Assembly: GCA_028275365.1 (NCBI GenBank)
Contig: JAPWUU010000003.1
Coordinates: 1 to 64,000, forward strand
Direction of reading: 5' to 3'
DNA from: Candidatus Caldatribacterium sp.
Lineage (GTDB): Bacteria; Atribacterota; Atribacteria; Atribacterales; Caldatribacteriaceae
DNA length: 64,000 nt
Numbering within the stretch: the stretch's first letter is position 1; every line of letters begins with the position of its first letter. A program made the translations under genes and the position numbers. Below the pieces are notes generated by a model, which was given only the letters and a program-made list of their open reading frames with translations, had not been told where the DNA came from and ran no database searches. Positions 1,329 to 58,464 of this stretch are shown here, one piece after another.

Positions 1329-2104
1329 TGAAGGCGCCAAAAGTTGCTTTTTTCGACTTCACCTGCTGCGAAGGATGTCAGCTTCAGGTGGCCAATCTCG
1401 GGGAGGAGCTCCTCGAGCTCCTCAAGTTCCTGGATCTTGTGGAATTCCGGGAAACCATGAGCGAGCGGTGGGATGGGATCTACGATATTGCCATCATCGA
1501 AGGGAGTATCACCACTCCTCATGATGTTGAACGAATCAAACGGATCCGCCAGCGCTCGAAAACACTCATTGCCTACGGGTCCTGTGCCACCATCGGCGGG
1601 GTCAACGGCATGAAGAACGCCTTTGACCTTGAGGAGATCCTCCGGTACGTCTATGGAGAAGGGGCAAGGTTTTTCACCACCCTTCCCACCCGTCCGGTGC
1701 ATGAAGTCGTTCCTGTGGAGTACTTCGTCCATGGATGCCCTGTGTACCAGCCTGAGTTCCTCGAAGTGCTCAAGTGTGCTCTCCTTGGGATTCCCTATCA
1801 CGTACCGGATGTGGCCGTTTGTGTAGAATGCAAGTTCAACGAGAACGTCTGTTTCTACGAGCGAGGTCTCACCTGTCTTGGTCCCATCACCCGGGCGGGG
1901 TGCAACTCCTGGTGCATCAACAATGGCAACATCTGCTACGGGTGCCGGGGGATGGTTTCCAACCCCAATGAGCGGGGATTCCTCGAGGTGCTTGAGCGTT
2001 ACGGTGTCCGTGTAGAGTTTCTGGTCCGACGGATGGACATGTACAACGCCTGTCGAATCCTGAAAGGAGCGGGGAAAGGGCATGGGGAAGAGCATACGCG
2101 TTGA
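1325..2104 (+). CDS. hydD: [NiFe] hydrogenase small subunit
   Basis: Small (delta) subunit of about 259 residues, holding the proximal iron-sulfur cluster next to the Ni-Fe site. The N-terminal FDFTCCEGCQLQ (C15 and C18) is the CxxC motif of the NADH-dehydrogenase 20 kDa/hydrogenase small subunit family, and GSCATIGG supplies a further ligand. Several more cysteines follow in the middle and C-terminal parts (CVECKFNENVC, CYGCRG). It lacks the Tat signal of membrane-bound hydrogenases, consistent with a cytoplasmic enzyme. ATG 1325 overlaps the previous stop (ATGA) with AAAGGGG a few bases upstream; ATG 1328 is equally possible. Confidence 0.88.
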   Translation: MMKAPKVAFFDFTCCEGCQLQVANLGEELLELLKFLDLVEFRETMSERWDGIYDIAIIEGSITTPHDVERIKRIRQRSKTLIAYGSCATIGGVNGMKNAFDLEEILRYVYGEGARFFTTLPTRPVHEVVPVEYFVHGCPVYQPEFLEVLKCALLGIPYHVPDVAVCVECKFNENVCFYERGLTCLGPITRAGCNSWCINNGNICYGCRGMVSNPNERGFLEVLERYGVRVEFLVRRMDMYNACRILKGAGKGHGEEHTR

Positions 2105-3425
2105 CGTTGAATACCTCACCCGGGTTGAGGGGCACGGGAACATCGTGGTGGACGTCCGGGACGGAACGCTCAGGGAATGTCGCCTGGAGATTATAGAATC
2201 GCCGAGATTTTTCGAGGGAATGCTCCGGGGACGGTCCATTTTCGAGGCCCAGCACATCACCTCTCGAATCTGCGGCATCTGTGCCTGTGCCCATTCCCTG
2301 GCCTCCATTCAGGCAGCGGAAGAGGCCATCGGTTTTGTGCCCAGTGAGCAGACGGTGAAGCTGCGGAAATTCCTTCTTGATATTGAAATTCTCGATAGCC
2401 ACGTCCTCCACATCTACTTCCTCGTTGCCCCGGACCTTTTTGGCGCGAAGAGTTTCGTCCCTCTTGTGGAGACCCACAACGCGGTGGTTCGGAGAGCACT
2501 ACGACTCAAGAAAACCTGCAACGATGTCTGTGATATCCTTGTGGGCCGACATGTCCACCCCATAAGCTGCACTGTGGGGGGATTCACGAAGCTTCCTCGT
2601 CCTGGGGACCTCGAGAAGATGCGTAGCCTCCTCCTTGGGATGATTCCCGACCTTGAGGCCACGGTCGACCTCGTTCGAGGATTCCGCTTTCCTGAATTCG
2701 AGCGGGAAACGGAGTACGTGGCCCTGGTGTCTGATGACGATGAGTATCCGCTCCTTATGGGGGATATCGGTTCAACTGATGGGGTCCGCCTCCCGAAGAA
2801 AGACTACAGGAAAATCACCAATGAATTCGTGGTTCCCCACTCGACGGCAAAGCATACCCACTTGAGCCGTGATTCCTACATGGTTGGAGCTCTGGCCCGT
2901 CTGAATCTGAACTACCCCAAACTCCATCCCAGAGCGAAGGAAATAGCGGACCTTTTTGGAATGCATCGAAAGGTCACGAACCCCTATCTGAATACCGTTG
3001 CCCAGCTTGTGGAGTGTTTCCACTGTCTCTACCACGCGGTGGGTATCGTGGAGGAGTTTCTCGAAAGAGGCCTCGACTACAACGAGGAGATTGTGGTAGG
3101 GCTTAACGAGAAACAGCGCATCCCGGTTCGGGCTGGAAGCGGTGTTGGGGCGGTGGAAGCACCCCGGGGAACACTCTACCACCACTACGAGGTTGACGAC
3201 CACGGCCGCATTGTGCATGCTAACTGCGTCATTCCCACTGGACAGAACCTCCGGAACATCGAGTACGATATGCGGAAGCTCGTTCCTGAAATTCTTGACC
3301 GAAGCGAAGAAGAAATCCAGCTTGCCCTTGAGATGCTCGTGCGGGCGTATGACCCCTGTATTTCCTGTTCTACCCATTTCCTCAATGTTACCTTTGTTGG
3401 ACGAGAAAATCCGAAAGGCTCTTGA
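2082..3425 (+). CDS. hydA: [NiFe] hydrogenase large (catalytic) subunit
   Basis: Catalytic subunit of 447 residues that binds the Ni-Fe(CN)2CO centre. The L1 motif RICGIC is at residues 62-67 (C64, C67) followed by H71, and the L2 motif DPCISCSTH ends at H432 (C426, C429). Fifteen residues follow H432, so the precursor should need C-terminal cleavage, which fits the protease gene immediately downstream. Gene order beta-gamma-small-large and the flavoprotein partner point to a group 3b bidirectional NADP-linked hydrogenase. ATG 2082 overlaps the small subunit gene by 23 bases; AAGGAG and GGGAAAGGG precede it. Confidence 0.92.
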   Translation: MGKSIRVDVEYLTRVEGHGNIVVDVRDGTLRECRLEIIESPRFFEGMLRGRSIFEAQHITSRICGICACAHSLASIQAAEEAIGFVPSEQTVKLRKFLLDIEILDSHVLHIYFLVAPDLFGAKSFVPLVETHNAVVRRALRLKKTCNDVCDILVGRHVHPISCTVGGFTKLPRPGDLEKMRSLLLGMIPDLEATVDLVRGFRFPEFERETEYVALVSDDDEYPLLMGDIGSTDGVRLPKKDYRKITNEFVVPHSTAKHTHLSRDSYMVGALARLNLNYPKLHPRAKEIADLFGMHRKVTNPYLNTVAQLVECFHCLYHAVGIVEEFLERGLDYNEEIVVGLNEKQRIPVRAGSGVGAVEAPRGTLYHHYEVDDHGRIVHANCVIPTGQNLRNIEYDMRKLVPEILDRSEEEIQLALEMLVRAYDPCISCSTHFLNVTFVGRENPKGS

Positions 3426-52807: not shown

Positions 52808-54545
52808 ACGTCAAAGGCATCTTGTGAGGCTTTTTCATTACCTTGTGCCGTACTGGAGGTACATCCTTGGTGCTCTGCTTTTGGCGTTTCTTGGTGCCTT
52901 GCTGAACCTTGCCCTACCCTGGCTTGTGGAGAAAACCATCGACCGGGCCCTCCTTGAGAAGGATCTGCGACTTTTAGTGTTCATCGCCCTGGGGATTGTG
53001 GGGATTTTCTTCGTCAAAGGTGTAGCATCCTATGTCCAGAGCTTCTGGGTTTCCCTTGCCGGCTTTCGAGTTATCACCCGGCTCCGCTCCGAGCTCTACC
53101 AACACCTGCACCATCTCTCCGTGGCCTTTTTTCAGGAGAACCCACCGGGGGAGATCATCTCCCGGATGACCAGTGATATTGCCGTTTTGCAGAATTTTTT
53201 CTCCAGCGCCCTTGTGACGATGCTCATGGACCTTTTGCTCTTTTTGGGTTCTGTAGTGTTCCTCTTTTTCATCCACTGGAAACTGGCACTGCTCTCGGTT
53301 GTCGTTTTCCCTCTGGTCGGTCTTTGCGTGGATATTCTGGGGAAGCGCATCCGGGGGTTTTCCCACCTTCTCCAAAGTAGGGTGGCTGCTCTGACCTCCC
53401 TTGTGGAGCGGACGGTGACGGGCATCAAGGTCATTCAGTCCTACGTCAGCGGTCACTACGAGGTGGAGAAGTTCGAGCGGGAAAATGAAATGAACTTCTA
53501 CCTTGCCATGAAGCAGGCAAAAGCCAGAGCACTCTTCAATCCCCTCGTTGAACTTGTGGCTTCCTGTGGTGTTACAGCGGTCATCTGGTACGGAGGACGT
53601 GAGGTTATCAGGGGCTTCCTCACCCCCGGGCAGCTCATCGCCTTTTTGGGATATCTCGTTATCGCTTCTTCTCCCCTCTCTCGCTTCTCTTCAGGTTTCC
53701 AGCTTTTCCAGCAGGGTCTCGCTTCGCTAGAGCGGATTTTTGAATTCCTTGACACCGCACCTTTTGTTGCCGAGGATGACGAGGGCGTGGAACTCCGGGA
53801 GTTCAGAGAGCGCATTTCTTTCCGCAACGTTTCTTTCTCCTACAAAGGCGAGAAGATTCTCAAGAACTTTTCTCTGGACATCTGCAAGGGGGAAAGAGTG
53901 GGCATTGTCGGCCCAAGTGGCGCCGGGAAAACCACCATCATCAACCTCCTTCTGCGTTTCTACGACCCTGATGAGGGTTGCATTGAGATCGACGGGATAG
54001 ATATACGGAAAATTAAGCTCTCATCACTCCGGAGCCTCATCGGTGTGGTGCTTCAGGATGCGCTGGTTCTCGGGGGGACGGTTCGGGAGAATATCCTTTA
54101 CGGGAATCTCAATGCTTCTGAGGAGGATATCCAGAAGGCTTCCCGAAAAGCCCGAGCCCATGAGTTCATCATGCAGCTTGAGCACGGATACGATACCGAC
54201 GTGGGGGAAGGAGGATGCCGCTTATCGGGGGGTCAGAGGCAGCGAATCGCTATTGCCCGGGCCTTCCTCAAAAATTCCCCCATCCTGGTTTTCGATGAAG
54301 CAACGTCGAATCTCGATCCTGAGTCGGAGCGGTACATTCTTGAGACCATCGCTCAGATTGAGGAGGACAAAACCGTCATCATTGTTGCGCACTCCCTGCG
54401 GATGGTGAAAGACCTGGACCGCATTGTCCTTATCGCCGATGGGGAGGTCCAGGGGGAGGGGACTCACGAAGCACTTCTCCAGTCTCATCCGCTCTATCAG
54501 GCGCTCTTTGGATTCGAAGACAGAGCGTTGAGGGAAGCCCGATAG
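52800..54545 (+). CDS. msbA: Lipid A export ABC transporter MsbA-like
   Basis: Half-transporter of 581 residues: six membrane segments in the first 310 residues and an ATPase domain after about 335. Walker A GPSGAGKTT, Q-loop VLQDALVLGGTV, signature LSGGQRQR, Walker B ILVFDEATSNLD and the switch histidine (IIVAHSLRM) are intact. Its place at the end of the lpx run supports lipid A-core flipping across the inner membrane. ATG 52800 has GGAGGAGC 4 bases upstream. The 3' end overlaps the convergent DUF4416 gene. Confidence 0.9.
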   Translation: MAERQRHLVRLFHYLVPYWRYILGALLLAFLGALLNLALPWLVEKTIDRALLEKDLRLLVFIALGIVGIFFVKGVASYVQSFWVSLAGFRVITRLRSELYQHLHHLSVAFFQENPPGEIISRMTSDIAVLQNFFSSALVTMLMDLLLFLGSVVFLFFIHWKLALLSVVVFPLVGLCVDILGKRIRGFSHLLQSRVAALTSLVERTVTGIKVIQSYVSGHYEVEKFERENEMNFYLAMKQAKARALFNPLVELVASCGVTAVIWYGGREVIRGFLTPGQLIAFLGYLVIASSPLSRFSSGFQLFQQGLASLERIFEFLDTAPFVAEDDEGVELREFRERISFRNVSFSYKGEKILKNFSLDICKGERVGIVGPSGAGKTTIINLLLRFYDPDEGCIEIDGIDIRKIKLSSLRSLIGVVLQDALVLGGTVRENILYGNLNASEEDIQKASRKARAHEFIMQLEHGYDTDVGEGGCRLSGGQRQRIAIARAFLKNSPILVFDEATSNLDPESERYILETIAQIEEDKTVIIVAHSLRMVKDLDRIVLIADGEVQGEGTHEALLQSHPLYQALFGFEDRALREAR

Positions 54546-55051
54546 AGCTCGCGGATCTTCCGCAAGACTGGTCGGTAAGCTTCGCTCTGGTAGTCGGGGT
54601 ACGTGTAGGGGAAAGGACGGAAGTCACCCTTCTCCCATTTGATGGTGGCCTCAGCGTAAATACCTCGCCCAATGTACACCCGGTGGGAGAAGTTTTTGGT
54701 CGTGGCGAGGACAATCTTCCCCCCGTCGAAGTACCCGGGGTCGAGGTTGATACGACGGGGGTGCGTAGCATCTGCTGTGGATTTTTCAAGCTCGTTGGTG
54801 AAAAGCTTGACTTCAGGGAGAATTCCAGGATCCACAAGTTCCCGGAAAACAAGGAAAACCCGAAGGAGCCGTTCCCCAATGTCGCGATAGTAGTCAGTGT
54901 ACGTAAAGGGAATGGGATCGCTCTGCCATTCAATGTCCCCAAGGCGTTCGGTCAAGCGAGGGAGAAGGTGCACGAGCACCTTGGGGTCTTCGTAGAGCGT
55001 GGCGATGAAAAGCTTTACCGGTTGAGGAGGTCGTACTTCGCCCACAGCCAT
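54497..55051 (-). CDS. DUF4416 family protein
   Basis: Protein of about 184 residues with the pattern KLFIATLYEDPKVLVHLLPRLTERLGDIEW, YTDYYRDIGERLLRVFLVFRELVDPG and RRINLDPGYFDGGKIVLAT (each only in part here), which matches the uncharacterised DUF4416 family. ATG 55051 is chosen because the next upstream ATG (55063) lies in a TATAAT element. Only 10 bases separate that -10 from the start, and just GGAAGTGG stands between, so the mRNA may be leaderless or nearly so. Function unknown. Confidence 0.8.
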   Translation of the reverse strand: MAVGEVRPPQPVKLFIATLYEDPKVLVHLLPRLTERLGDIEWQSDPIPFTYTDYYRDIGERLLRVFLVFRELVDPGILPEVKLFTNELEKSTADATHPRRINLDPGYFDGGKIVLATTKNFSHRVYIGRGIYAEATIKWEKGDFRPFPYTYPDYQSEAYRPVLRKIRELYRASLNALSSNPKSA

Positions 55052-55061
55052 CACCACTTCC

Positions 55062-55089
55062 ATTATACCTGAGAGAGAATCTGGTACAA
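55062..55089 (-). promoter_or_regulatory. Promoter of the DUF4416 gene
   Basis: On the minus strand, TTGTAC (55089-55084) and TATAAT (55067-55062) have a 16-base spacer. The -35 overlaps the -10 of the divergent ferritin-like gene promoter. Confidence 0.55.
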
Positions 55090-55090
55090 T
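55082..55090 (+). promoter_or_regulatory. Extended -10 promoter of the ferritin-like operon
   Basis: TGGTACAAT on the plus strand, 28 bases before GTG 55119. Its -35 region coincides with the -10 of the divergent DUF4416 promoter, so the two cannot easily be occupied together. Confidence 0.5.
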
Positions 55091-55118
55091 AGGAAACACA
55101 CGAGAGGAGGTGGTACCG

Positions 55119-55601
55119 GTGGCATTTCGGTTTGCCCCTTCGGAGGTTCTCAGCATGGCTGTAGAGCTTGAGCGAAAAGGCATAGCCTTCTACGAGCACC
55201 TGAAATCCAGAGCAACCCGGGAGGATGGGAAAAGGATGTTCCAGTTCCTCGCCGATGAGGAACGACAGCACCTTGAGACCTTCACCAGGCTCCTTGAGGA
55301 GACGGGAGAGACCGTTGTCGATGTGAATGGCGAGGTCTCCCAGTACCTGGGGTCCATTGTGGAGACTGGAGTGCTTTCCAGGGTTCTCAAGGAGGAAGTT
55401 TCGGTGGAAAAGATGGGTTTTTCCGAGGCCCTTGGCCTTGGCATTCAGGTGGAAAAAGAGAGCATTCTTTTCTACCAGGGGTTTTTGCCCTTTGTCCCCC
55501 GGGAGAAACAAGGCTGGGTTGAGGAGGTCATTGCCGAGGAGAAACGGCACTTCCTTCGTCTGGTAAAACTTAAGGAGGAACTTACCGGGGAGGCAGTATA
55601 G
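55119..55601 (+). CDS. Ferritin-like/rubrerythrin-domain protein without rubredoxin
   Basis: Helical protein of about 160 residues. Di-iron ligands are arranged as VELERKGIAFYEHL, ADEERQHLETF (ExxH), QVEKESILFYQ and EEKRHFLRL (ExxH), as in the erythrin and rubrerythrin core. There is no C-terminal rubredoxin domain. Likely handles iron or peroxide. GTG 55119 has GAGGAGG 8 bases upstream; GTG 55110 overlaps that site and is unlikely. The PfpI-peroxiredoxin fusion follows 2 bases later. Confidence 0.83.
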   Translation: MAFRFAPSEVLSMAVELERKGIAFYEHLKSRATREDGKRMFQFLADEERQHLETFTRLLEETGETVVDVNGEVSQYLGSIVETGVLSRVLKEEVSVEKMGFSEALGLGIQVEKESILFYQGFLPFVPREKQGWVEEVIAEEKRHFLRLVKLKEELTGEAV

Positions 55602-55603
55602 CC

Positions 55604-56572
55604 ATGGTCCATCGACGCATCGTTATCCTTGTGGAGAATCAGTACCAGGAACTGGAGCTCTGGTATCCCCTCTTGCGGCTTCGGGAAGAAGGGGTGGAAG
55701 CAAAGCTTGTGGGGCCTGGAATTGAGGAAACCTTCCTTGGGCGTCATGGTTTTCCCGCCAAGGCCGAGATGGTCACTTCTTCCGTGTCCCCGAAGGACTT
55801 CGACGGCATCATCATTCCTGGAGGGTTTGCTCCTGATTACCTTCGTCGGCTTCCGGTGGTCACGAACCTGGTGCGGGAGATGTACCAACAGGGAAAACTG
55901 ATTGGAGCGCTTTCCCGAGGGCCCTGGGTCCTCATCTCGGCGGACATCGTCCGGGGAAAAAGGATTGCCGGGCTCATCTCGCTTCGGGACGACATCAATA
56001 ATGCCGGCGGGGAATTTGTTGACGCACCAGTGGTGGTGGACGGGAACATTATCACCGCTCGTGGGCCGAATGAACTTCCTCTCTTTATGCGTGAGGTCCT
56101 GGCTTTTCTCTGGCGGAGCCGGCCCCGCCTGAACGAGCCCCATCCCGATGGGTGGCTTATCGATGGGACAGGAAACATGCTCTCCCTCGCCCAGCTCCTT
56201 CGGGGGAAACCGGCTTTAGTGCTCTTTTTTGATTCCGGTTTTAGCCCCCGGGGGATGACTTTCCTCCCCCGGTACAACGGGTTGGCGGAAAGGGTGGAGA
56301 GGAAAGGAGGGCTCTTTATAGGTATCAGCACCGAGAGCATCTTTACCCACCAGGAGCTCCAGCGCCGTCTCCAGCTTGCTTTTCCTCTTTATAGCGACGT
56401 CTTTCTCGAGGTCACCAAGGCCTTTGGGGTTCTTGGGGCCAGTGGCCTTGCGGAGTGGGCGGTGATGCTCATCGATGCGCATGGTGTGCTCCGCTTTGCG
56501 GAGCGTTGTCCCGGAGGAGATGTTGAAAGCCTCCCCGGTTTTCAGCGGAAATTTGAAAGCCTTTTTGGATAG
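55604..56572 (+). CDS. PfpI/DJ-1 domain fused to peroxiredoxin-like domain, both without catalytic cysteine
   Basis: Protein of 322 residues. Residues about 4-172 match the DJ-1/PfpI family (IVILVENQYQELELWYPLLRL, FDGIIIPGG), but the nucleophile elbow reads ALSRGPW (S104-R105), where active relatives have AxCHGP. Residues about 185-322 look like an AhpC/Prx thioredoxin fold (LAQLLRGKPALVLFFDSGFSPRGMTFL in pieces), but the site of the peroxidatic Cys (FTPVCT) is SPRGMT. The only cysteine is C302 near the C-terminus. A structural, regulatory or different catalytic role is therefore likely. It stands between a ferritin-like gene and a disulfide oxidoreductase gene. Confidence 0.82.
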   Translation: MVHRRIVILVENQYQELELWYPLLRLREEGVEAKLVGPGIEETFLGRHGFPAKAEMVTSSVSPKDFDGIIIPGGFAPDYLRRLPVVTNLVREMYQQGKLIGALSRGPWVLISADIVRGKRIAGLISLRDDINNAGGEFVDAPVVVDGNIITARGPNELPLFMREVLAFLWRSRPRLNEPHPDGWLIDGTGNMLSLAQLLRGKPALVLFFDSGFSPRGMTFLPRYNGLAERVERKGGLFIGISTESIFTHQELQRRLQLAFPLYSDVFLEVTKAFGVLGASGLAEWAVMLIDAHGVLRFAERCPGGDVESLPGFQRKFESLFG

Positions 56573-56584
56573 GAGGGAGAGCAC

Positions 56585-57229
56585 ATGGCATTGCTTGAGG
56601 ACAAGGATCGCAGGACGCTTGAGACGTACCTTGCGGAGCACCTTCTTCACCCGGTCACGCTCCGCTTCTTCACGCAGGAGCTTGAGTGCGAGACATGCCG
56701 CGAGGTGCGGATGCTCCTTGAGGAAGTTGTTCGTCTCTCACCGCTTCTGCGCCTTGAAGTGCACAACTTTGTTCTGGATCGGGAAGTTGCAGCCGCTTTC
56801 CGTATTGACAAGATCCCGGCATTCACCGTTGAAGGGGAGAGGGATTACGGTATTCGGTTCTTCGGTATTCCTTCGGGTTACGAGTTTTCAGGGTTTATCG
56901 AAACCCTGGTCTTTGTCTCACAGAGAACTACAGACCTCTCGGAAGACACCAAGGCCTTCCTGAAGGCACTGACGAAGGACGTCACCCTTCAGGTGTTTGT
57001 GACGCCAACCTGTCCTTTCTGCCCTCAGGCAGTTGTCCTGGCTCACAAAATGGCCTTCGAGAGCGATCGGGTTTCCTCCAGCATGGTGGAAATTCTCGAG
57101 TTTCCTCACCTGGCATACCGCTACGGCGTACGAGCGGTTCCGAAAATCATCCTGAACGAAACCGTTGCCTTAGAGGGGGCCGTCCCGGAGGCTTTTCTGG
57201 TGCAGAAAATCATAGAAGTTGCATCGTAA
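56585..57229 (+). CDS. Protein disulfide oxidoreductase (two thioredoxin folds)
   Basis: Glutaredoxin-like protein of 214 residues made of two thioredoxin-fold halves, each with a CxxC site: C35-E-T-C38 in the N-terminal half and C143-P-F-C146 in the C-terminal half. IPAFTV and VPKIIL are the cis-proline loops. This PDO arrangement is characteristic of hyperthermophilic archaea and thermophilic bacteria, where it forms or shuffles intracellular disulfides, and it can also reduce peroxiredoxins. GGAGGGAGAG precedes the ATG. Confidence 0.9.
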   Translation: MALLEDKDRRTLETYLAEHLLHPVTLRFFTQELECETCREVRMLLEEVVRLSPLLRLEVHNFVLDREVAAAFRIDKIPAFTVEGERDYGIRFFGIPSGYEFSGFIETLVFVSQRTTDLSEDTKAFLKALTKDVTLQVFVTPTCPFCPQAVVLAHKMAFESDRVSSSMVEILEFPHLAYRYGVRAVPKIILNETVALEGAVPEAFLVQKIIEVAS

Positions 57230-57242
57230 AGGGGGTTTCTCT

Positions 57243-58292
57243 ATGGGACAAACGATGAAAGCCGCGGTGATGAAGGGTATACGGCATATCGAGATCGAAG
57301 AGCTTCCCATTCCTATTCCGAAGGAAGGGGAGGTTCTCGTTCGCATCCGGAGTGTCGGGGTGTGCGGTTCGGATGTTCACTACTTTGTGGAGGGTCGTAT
57401 CGGCGATTTCGTGGTCCAGCCCCCGTTCATCCTGGGTCATGAGTGTTCGGGAGAGGTTGTGGAAGTGGGGAAAGGAGTAACGCATCTTAAGCCTGGGGAC
57501 CGGGTGACCATGGAGCCGGGTATTCCCTGTGGTAAGTGCGATTTTTGCCGCCAGGGGAGGTATAACCTCTGTCCCGAGGTGGTTTTTTGGGCCACACCAC
57601 CGGTGAACGGGACTTTCTGTGAGTACGTCGTGCACTCCGCGAACTTCACCTATCCTGTAGACTCCTCGGTGGGTTTCGAGGAGGCGGCGCTTGTGGAGCC
57701 CCTGGCGGTGGGTATGTATGCCGTGCATCGGGCACAGGCAAAGCCTGGGGATGTGGCACTTGTTCTCGGAAGTGGCCCGATTGGTCTTGTGACTTTACAG
57801 GCGTTGCTCTCAAGAGGCGTTACCGAGATTATCGCGGTGGACGTTGTGGAGAAACGGCTTGAGAAGGCCCGGGAACTCGGAGCGCGACTCGTCCTGAATG
57901 CCGCAAAAGAAAATGTGGAAGAGGAGGTTCGTGCCTTTACCCGGGGAAGGGGAGCTGATCTTGTTTTTGAAACTGCTGGGAGCGTTCAGACGGCACAGCT
58001 TTCCGTGGAAGTGGCCAGACGGGGTGGCAAAGTTGTCCTTGTGGGTTTGCCCTCAAAAACGCATTTCGATTTTGGCGTCATCAGGATTCTCGATAAAGAG
58101 CTCGATATCCTGGGGGTTTTCCGGTACGCCAACATGTACAAAGGCTGTGTGGACCTTCTCAACGCCCGTCGGGTGAATCTCGCAACGCTCATCACCCATC
58201 GCTTTCCTCTGGAGAAGACTCAGGAGGCTCTGCTTTTCGCCCATGAGCACAAGGCCGAATCCATCAAGGTTGTGGTGAACGTTGGGGGTTGA
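57243..58292 (+). CDS. Zinc-dependent polyol/sorbitol-type dehydrogenase (MDR family)
   Basis: Medium-chain dehydrogenase of 349 residues. Catalytic zinc ligands are in VGVCGSDVHYF and LGHECSGEVVEV; the structural zinc lobe is present (CGKCDFCRQGRYNLC); the NAD fold has LVLGSGPIGLVTLQALL. Sequence context (GSDVHYFxxGRIG, PVNGTFCEYVVH) matches sorbitol/xylitol dehydrogenases. The true substrate is unknown. ATG 57243 has AAAGGGGG 6 bases upstream; GTG 57219 is an upstream in-frame alternative without family support. Confidence 0.9.
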   Translation: MGQTMKAAVMKGIRHIEIEELPIPIPKEGEVLVRIRSVGVCGSDVHYFVEGRIGDFVVQPPFILGHECSGEVVEVGKGVTHLKPGDRVTMEPGIPCGKCDFCRQGRYNLCPEVVFWATPPVNGTFCEYVVHSANFTYPVDSSVGFEEAALVEPLAVGMYAVHRAQAKPGDVALVLGSGPIGLVTLQALLSRGVTEIIAVDVVEKRLEKARELGARLVLNAAKENVEEEVRAFTRGRGADLVFETAGSVQTAQLSVEVARRGGKVVLVGLPSKTHFDFGVIRILDKELDILGVFRYANMYKGCVDLLNARRVNLATLITHRFPLEKTQEALLFAHEHKAESIKVVVNVGG

Positions 58293-58424: not shown

Positions 58425-58430
58425 ATTTTG

Positions 58431-58464
58431 AGCCACTTGCCGACCTGGCAAGTGGCTTTTTTTT
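58431..58464 (+). terminator. Riboswitch-controlled intrinsic terminator
   Basis: AGCCACTTGCC and GGCAAGTGGCT form an 11-bp stem with a 5-base loop, followed by a run of 8 T. It ends immediately before the thiW ribosome binding site (GGAGGTGGGG), so it is the expression platform of the TPP riboswitch. Confidence 0.95.

Follow-up and report, generated by a model that had tools for sequence, protein, structure and literature searches.

The locus analysed here raises the question of what a protein might do when it joins two domains, each of which ordinarily depends on a reactive cysteine, and carries neither cysteine at the expected site. It lies in a window of 64,000 nucleotides (contig JAPWUU010000003.1, positions 1 to 64,000, forward strand) from a relative of Candidatus Caldatribacterium (Atribacterota). 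An earlier note, made from the letters of this window alone, had described a fusion of PfpI and peroxiredoxin domains with parallel loss of the catalytic cysteine in both halves, had proposed selection for a cysteine-independent function, and had grouped the gene with its neighbors as an oxidative-stress unit.

Domain architecture and predicted fold

The gene, its domains, and the positions discussed below are as follows:

55604..56572, + strand: PfpI-pseudoperoxiredoxin fusion, 322 amino acids (open reading frame; Pfam; AlphaFold2)
55613..56101, + strand: DJ-1/PfpI domain, residues 4-166 (PF01965, 147 bits; Foldseek to PH1704)
55913..55918, + strand: Ser104-Arg105, replacing the nucleophilic Cys of PfpI proteins and the His that follows it (alignment to PH1704)
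56135..56506, + strand: peroxiredoxin-like domain without catalytic residues, residues 178-301 (PF00578, PF08534; Foldseek)
56231..56254, + strand: former peroxidatic motif P-x3-[TS]-x2-C, now D210-SGF-S214-PR-G217 (alignment with intact peroxiredoxins of the same order)
56456..56458, + strand: Trp285, replacing the strictly conserved catalytic Arg of peroxiredoxins (same alignment)
56507..56509, + strand: Cys302, the protein's sole cysteine, within the motif E-x-C-P-x-G-D (placed by alignment next to the former peroxiredoxin pocket)

The two-domain composition read from the letters is borne out by profile searches: the Pfam family DJ-1_PfpI (PF01965) matches residues 4-166 with 147 bits (cut-off 26.6) and AhpC-TSA (PF00578) matches residues 180-298 with 59.3 bits (cut-off 26), the Redoxin family (PF08534) also scores above its cut-off in the C-terminal half, and both the DJ-1/PfpI and the peroxiredoxin families are recovered in all 23 intact orthologues. 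The PfpI-subfamily model TIGR01382 is matched with 149.9 bits (cut-off 139.05). The AlphaFold2 model of the fusion has a mean pLDDT of 91.6 and a pTM of 0.87; in Foldseek searches its N-terminal half retrieves PH1704 (1g2i/6q3t; E ~1e-17, TM 0.93 on the target), and its C-terminal half retrieves Bcp4 (3hjp) and AhpE (1xvw), with TM 0.81-0.83 on the target.

State of the two active sites

Alignment with PH1704 (PDB 1g2i) places Ser104-Arg105 of the window protein at Cys100-His101, confirming the replacement proposed in the earlier note, and the Ser-Arg pair is common to the genomes of the window's own family (hereinafter f1), being invariant in 11 of 11 sequences with synonymous codon variation. 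Since three codons are used for Ser104 and four for Arg105 within f1, the replacement residues are themselves maintained. The Cys-His pair that marks the PfpI subfamily is found in eight sister orthologues and is missing from the window protein, whose PfpI half has thus lost both the nucleophile and the adjoining histidine. Glu12 of PH1704 corresponds to Gln15 of the fusion. We rejected counting this as a third catalytic loss, because Gln also occupies this position in 8 of 14 single-domain relatives that carry Cys-His. Asp78 of the fusion, kept in f1, aligns with Glu74 of the PH1704 triad, the residue by which a second subunit completes the active site in the PfpI oligomer (PMC4156298, PMC1782040). 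The former pocket positions Gln15, Gly74, Phe75, and Tyr79 are invariant across all fusions.

The persistence of a serine exactly at the PfpI nucleophile position, invariant in f1 under several codons, together with the retained Asp78, is what one would expect if Ser104 were a serine nucleophile and the PfpI half still a hydrolase. However, those 11 sequences all carry Arg105 in place of the histidine base, and no serine is available to the sister lineages in which residue 104 is Gly or His. On these residues Ser104 is unlikely to act as a nucleophile, and we regard a hydrolase persisting by this route as very improbable. The same genome also encodes a tandem double DJ-1 protein (G000:C70:4266-5201; L002, L003), in which the N-terminal copy has Gly-Asp for Cys-His and the C-terminal copy keeps Cys-His.

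For peroxiredoxins, the motif P-x3-[TS]-x2-C and an active-site Arg are stated to be invariant (PMC5719442). Alignment with intact peroxiredoxins of the same order superimposes the FTPVCT motif on F213-S-P-R-G217-M of the fusion, such that the first Pro of the longer motif is Asp210, its Thr is Ser214, and the peroxidatic Cys is Gly217; the reading of SPRGMT as the altered form of an FTPVCT-type motif therefore stands. Met218 was considered as a stand-in for the missing cysteine and was rejected, as the alignment gives Gly217. Position 217 is Cys in none of the 24 fusion copies, and the position of the catalytic Arg is Trp in 22 of the 23 intact orthologues and Thr in one. The window protein has the fold and homology of a peroxiredoxin and has neither the peroxidatic-Cys motif nor the Arg, and this half is predicted to be devoid of peroxiredoxin chemistry. 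Another locus of this genome (L155, G000:C73) codes for a canonical cysteine peroxiredoxin that has FTPVCTTE and retains the catalytic Arg, so that the cell need not rely on the fusion for peroxidase activity; the L155 locus also has a second reading frame, ferritin-like in appearance. Judged by the active-site features that define the two families, the window protein would thus be functional neither as a PfpI nor as a peroxiredoxin.

Phyletic distribution and order of the losses

The window's fusion is 95% identical to the copy of C. saccharofermentans and 93% identical to that of C. californiense, and four genomes of its genus carry a copy. When the same two-domain architecture was sought among homologues, it was found in 24 of the 25 genomes of one Atribacterota order, the lone exception being a genome that is 75% complete, and nowhere else in the genomes searched: none was seen in about 266 genomes outside the order (291 searched, including 50 Atribacterota), a set that covers 25 Atribacterota genomes from outside the order. 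Likewise, no match covering 80% of the query was recovered among 72,556 plasmids; a further scan of about 85,000 species relied on exact 8-residue patterns, which detect close relatives only. Where other genomes showed a long PfpI reading frame, it proved to be upstream read-through rather than a peroxiredoxin fusion, with the exception of a PfpI-ferritin fusion (L142). The 24 copies include one that is broken or misassembled (G019); a denominator of 23 denotes the intact copies alone. In that genome (G019:C247:4667-5435; L055, L081) the fusion gene is without about residues 43-104 and shows a frame change, reflecting either a deletion or an assembly error.

Phylogenetic analysis recovered the fusion as a single clade (support 100/100) among single-domain Cys-His relatives, and all single-domain relatives aligned retain Cys-His. 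Within the fusion clade, 11 copies (f1) have Ser-Arg as the PfpI pair, 8 (f3) have Cys-His, 2 (drawn from f2 and one f3 genus) have Gly-His, and 2 (f4) have His-His, the remaining copy being damaged. On the full-length tree these states entail at least three switches between Cys and non-Cys with four residue changes, a count that is not firm, and placing all non-Cys PfpI forms in a single group was only borderline rejected (AU test p = 0.052). As the peroxiredoxin site is dead in 24 of 24 copies, while the PfpI Cys-His is alive in 8 of 24, the peroxiredoxin site was lost first and the PfpI site later, probably more than once. The parallel loss envisaged in the earlier note is in this sense not one event.

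Selection on the two halves

Purifying selection acts on both halves. Among close pairs, the PfpI half mostly gives dN/dS values of about 0.02-0.13 and the peroxiredoxin half values of about 0.03-0.18; these figures are rough, as several dS values are close to saturation or past it and two pairs were not computable, and all of them are far below 1. We therefore rejected decay of the gene. Sequencing error was likewise rejected, given that Ser-Arg is common to 11 genomes of f1. The disrupted copy in G019 is the sort of thing that decay or error would produce, yet with 23 intact reading frames, low dN/dS in both halves, and identical residues in 11 genomes, an explanation of the family along these lines is hardly credible. 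Across families, identity to the window's fusion is 63-69% in the PfpI half and 40-48% in the peroxiredoxin half; the better conservation of the former is expected if a PfpI surface is in use.

Conserved gene neighborhood

The genes and the candidate signal that accompany the fusion in the window are:

55110..55601 (start 55110 or 55119), + strand: erythrin, a diiron protein of the ferritin-like type that resembles rubrerythrin and has no rubredoxin domain (PF02915)
56585..57229, + strand: protein disulfide oxidoreductase carrying CETC and CPFC as its two CxxC sites (TIGR02187)
57243..58292, + strand: zinc-dependent medium-chain alcohol/polyol dehydrogenase (PF08240, PF00107)
58430..58458, + strand: terminator-like hairpin of 13 pairs followed by TTTTTT, a candidate operon end (consensus match; region not enriched over shuffles)

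The erythrin gene (PF02915, 42.5 bits; cut-off 22.8) ends two bases upstream of the fusion, and its orthologue lies directly upstream in all 24 fusion genomes, with the diiron ligand positions (Glu, E..H) invariant in 24 of 24 orthologues; it had no match in the 25 Atribacterota genomes outside the order. The disulfide oxidoreductase (TIGR02187, 261.7 bits; cut-off 185) comprises two thioredoxin-like units with a CxxC each and adjoins the fusion in families f1 and f4 only, with no match anywhere in the f2 and f3 genomes at E <= 0.001. Thus, the oxidative-stress unit proposed earlier is sound as regards the reality of the ferritin-like and disulfide oxidoreductase genes and fails as regards the constancy of the latter. 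The constant partners are instead erythrin and the zinc alcohol dehydrogenase, which the earlier note had not included; the dehydrogenase gene occurs downstream of the fusion wherever the contig reaches that far, and shows several NCBIfam matches, none above cut-off. In one genome (G007) the cassette is intact although the upstream flanking genes differ. Most of the order has a divergently transcribed DUF4416 gene on the upstream side (window 54497-55183, - strand). No genome combines the disulfide oxidoreductase with a Cys-His fusion. The association this suggests between having the oxidoreductase and having lost the PfpI cysteine was left unused, as the Gly-His lineages are also without the oxidoreductase and the independent events are few.

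The second constant partner suggests a different kind of role, in which the PfpI pocket, no longer needed for catalysis, would bind a sugar or a small carbonyl compound and relay the signal, or channel the compound, to the zinc dehydrogenase of the operon. The invariance of the four pocket positions listed above is consistent with this, as is the fixation of Ser-Arg in the window's family, which is what a fixed binding role would predict. However, the fusion has no DNA-binding or signaling domain, and we hold such a binding or sensing protein to be rather unlikely.

The remaining cysteine

The proposal of a cysteine-independent function agrees with the disappearance of both catalytic cysteines, and is weakened, though not disproved, by Cys302, whose near-invariance leaves that proposal unproven. 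Cys302 is Cys in 21 of the 23 intact orthologues (11 of 11 in f1 and 10 of 12 in the others) and Trp in the remaining two, and it precedes a Pro that aligns with the pocket-lining Pro141 of AnPrx6 (PMC5719442). It could be chemically active. It could then be imagined that the thiol was in effect relocated, with Cys302, the only cysteine of the window protein, doing redox work beside the old peroxiredoxin pocket and being kept reduced by the operon's disulfide oxidoreductase, which has two CxxC sites. Against this, Cys302 is kept also in families that have no oxidoreductase, it is Trp in two orthologues, and the Arg that activates peroxiredoxin thiols is absent from the fusion, which together make a relocated thiol distinctly improbable.

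A proposed accessory role for the fusion

The catalytic cysteines are gone, the loss is both real and old, and the protein is nonetheless conserved (pairwise dN/dS mostly 0.02-0.18), which makes a non-catalytic role of the fusion likely. We put forward an accessory model on the grounds that the erythrin partner is intact, that fold and residues have been maintained, that PfpI domains fused to ferritin-like ones occur, and that large catalases carry a DJ-1-like domain at the C terminus (see below). We see the chances as evenly balanced that the fusion is a double pseudoenzyme without cysteine chemistry that serves as an accessory protein or chaperone to erythrin and perhaps to other proteins. 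Under this model, a PfpI-type domain would have joined a peroxiredoxin domain in the ancestor of one Atribacterota order; the peroxidatic Cys and the catalytic Arg of the latter would have disappeared before the order diversified; and several lineages, among them the window's family, where Cys-His became Ser-Arg, would then have lost the PfpI nucleophile. When the cell is exposed to heat and oxidative stress, the two folds of the fusion might bind, stabilize, or chaperone erythrin, perhaps along with further cell proteins; the disulfide oxidoreductase, where found, is a lineage-variable member of the operon. The narrower version, that this order-specific double pseudoenzyme is a dedicated chaperone or assembly factor of the diiron erythrin, with the stages of its conversion visible in living relatives, is offered only tentatively, as we consider it more doubtful than otherwise. 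The linkage of the erythrin and fusion genes may instead reflect shared stress regulation only. Further, the PfpI half may still be an enzyme in the eight genomes with Cys-His, going by that pair, in which case a purely structural role might not hold family-wide.

Comparison with known systems

Cysteine-less DJ-1-like domains and pseudoenzymes as such are already known. In the literature and collections covered by a limited search, there was no record of a PfpI-peroxiredoxin fusion, or of one with both sites lost, and an equally limited literature search returned nothing relevant on a Caldatribacterium peroxiredoxin or on peroxiredoxin pseudoenzymes. The N-terminal half resembles the PH1704/PfpI protease-deglycase subfamily (TIGR01382, 1g2i) in fold, at 36-37% identity, and differs from it in having Ser104-Arg105 for Cys100-His101 and a fused peroxiredoxin-like domain. 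The C-terminal half shares the fold of the Bcp/AhpE-type and 1-Cys peroxiredoxins (3hjp, 1xvw; AnPrx6), and differs in being without peroxidatic Cys or catalytic Arg; a 1-Cys peroxiredoxin with chaperone activity exists (PMC5719442).

At the level of architecture, the large catalases (E. coli HPII, N. crassa CAT-1 and CAT-3) offer a likeness in the form of a DJ-1-fold domain within an antioxidant protein. Their DJ-1-like C-terminal domain, for which no active site is predicted (PMC1782040), confers stability and chaperone activity (PMC9137513, PMC10135305); unlike the PfpI half described here, it is attached to a catalase rather than to a dead peroxiredoxin and is derived from Hsp31, not PfpI. 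A second likeness, the tie between a PfpI domain and a ferritin-like domain, is seen in the cyanobacterial-type PfpI-ferritin-like fusion 3fse (Ava_4496, Anabaena) and in L142 (G240, 1898-3058), where a Cys-His PfpI domain is joined to a ferritin-like stretch as in PDB 3fse. These proteins, in contrast to the window's locus, keep Cys-His, form a single polypeptide rather than neighboring genes, and have no peroxiredoxin domain. The fusion locus thus links a DJ-1-type domain to a ferritin-like peroxide/iron protein in thermophilic bacteria, comparable to the Anabaena fusion, and the occurrence of Cys-His, Ser-Arg, Gly-His, and His-His within one architecture provides a natural series for testing the passage from an enzyme to a structural partner.
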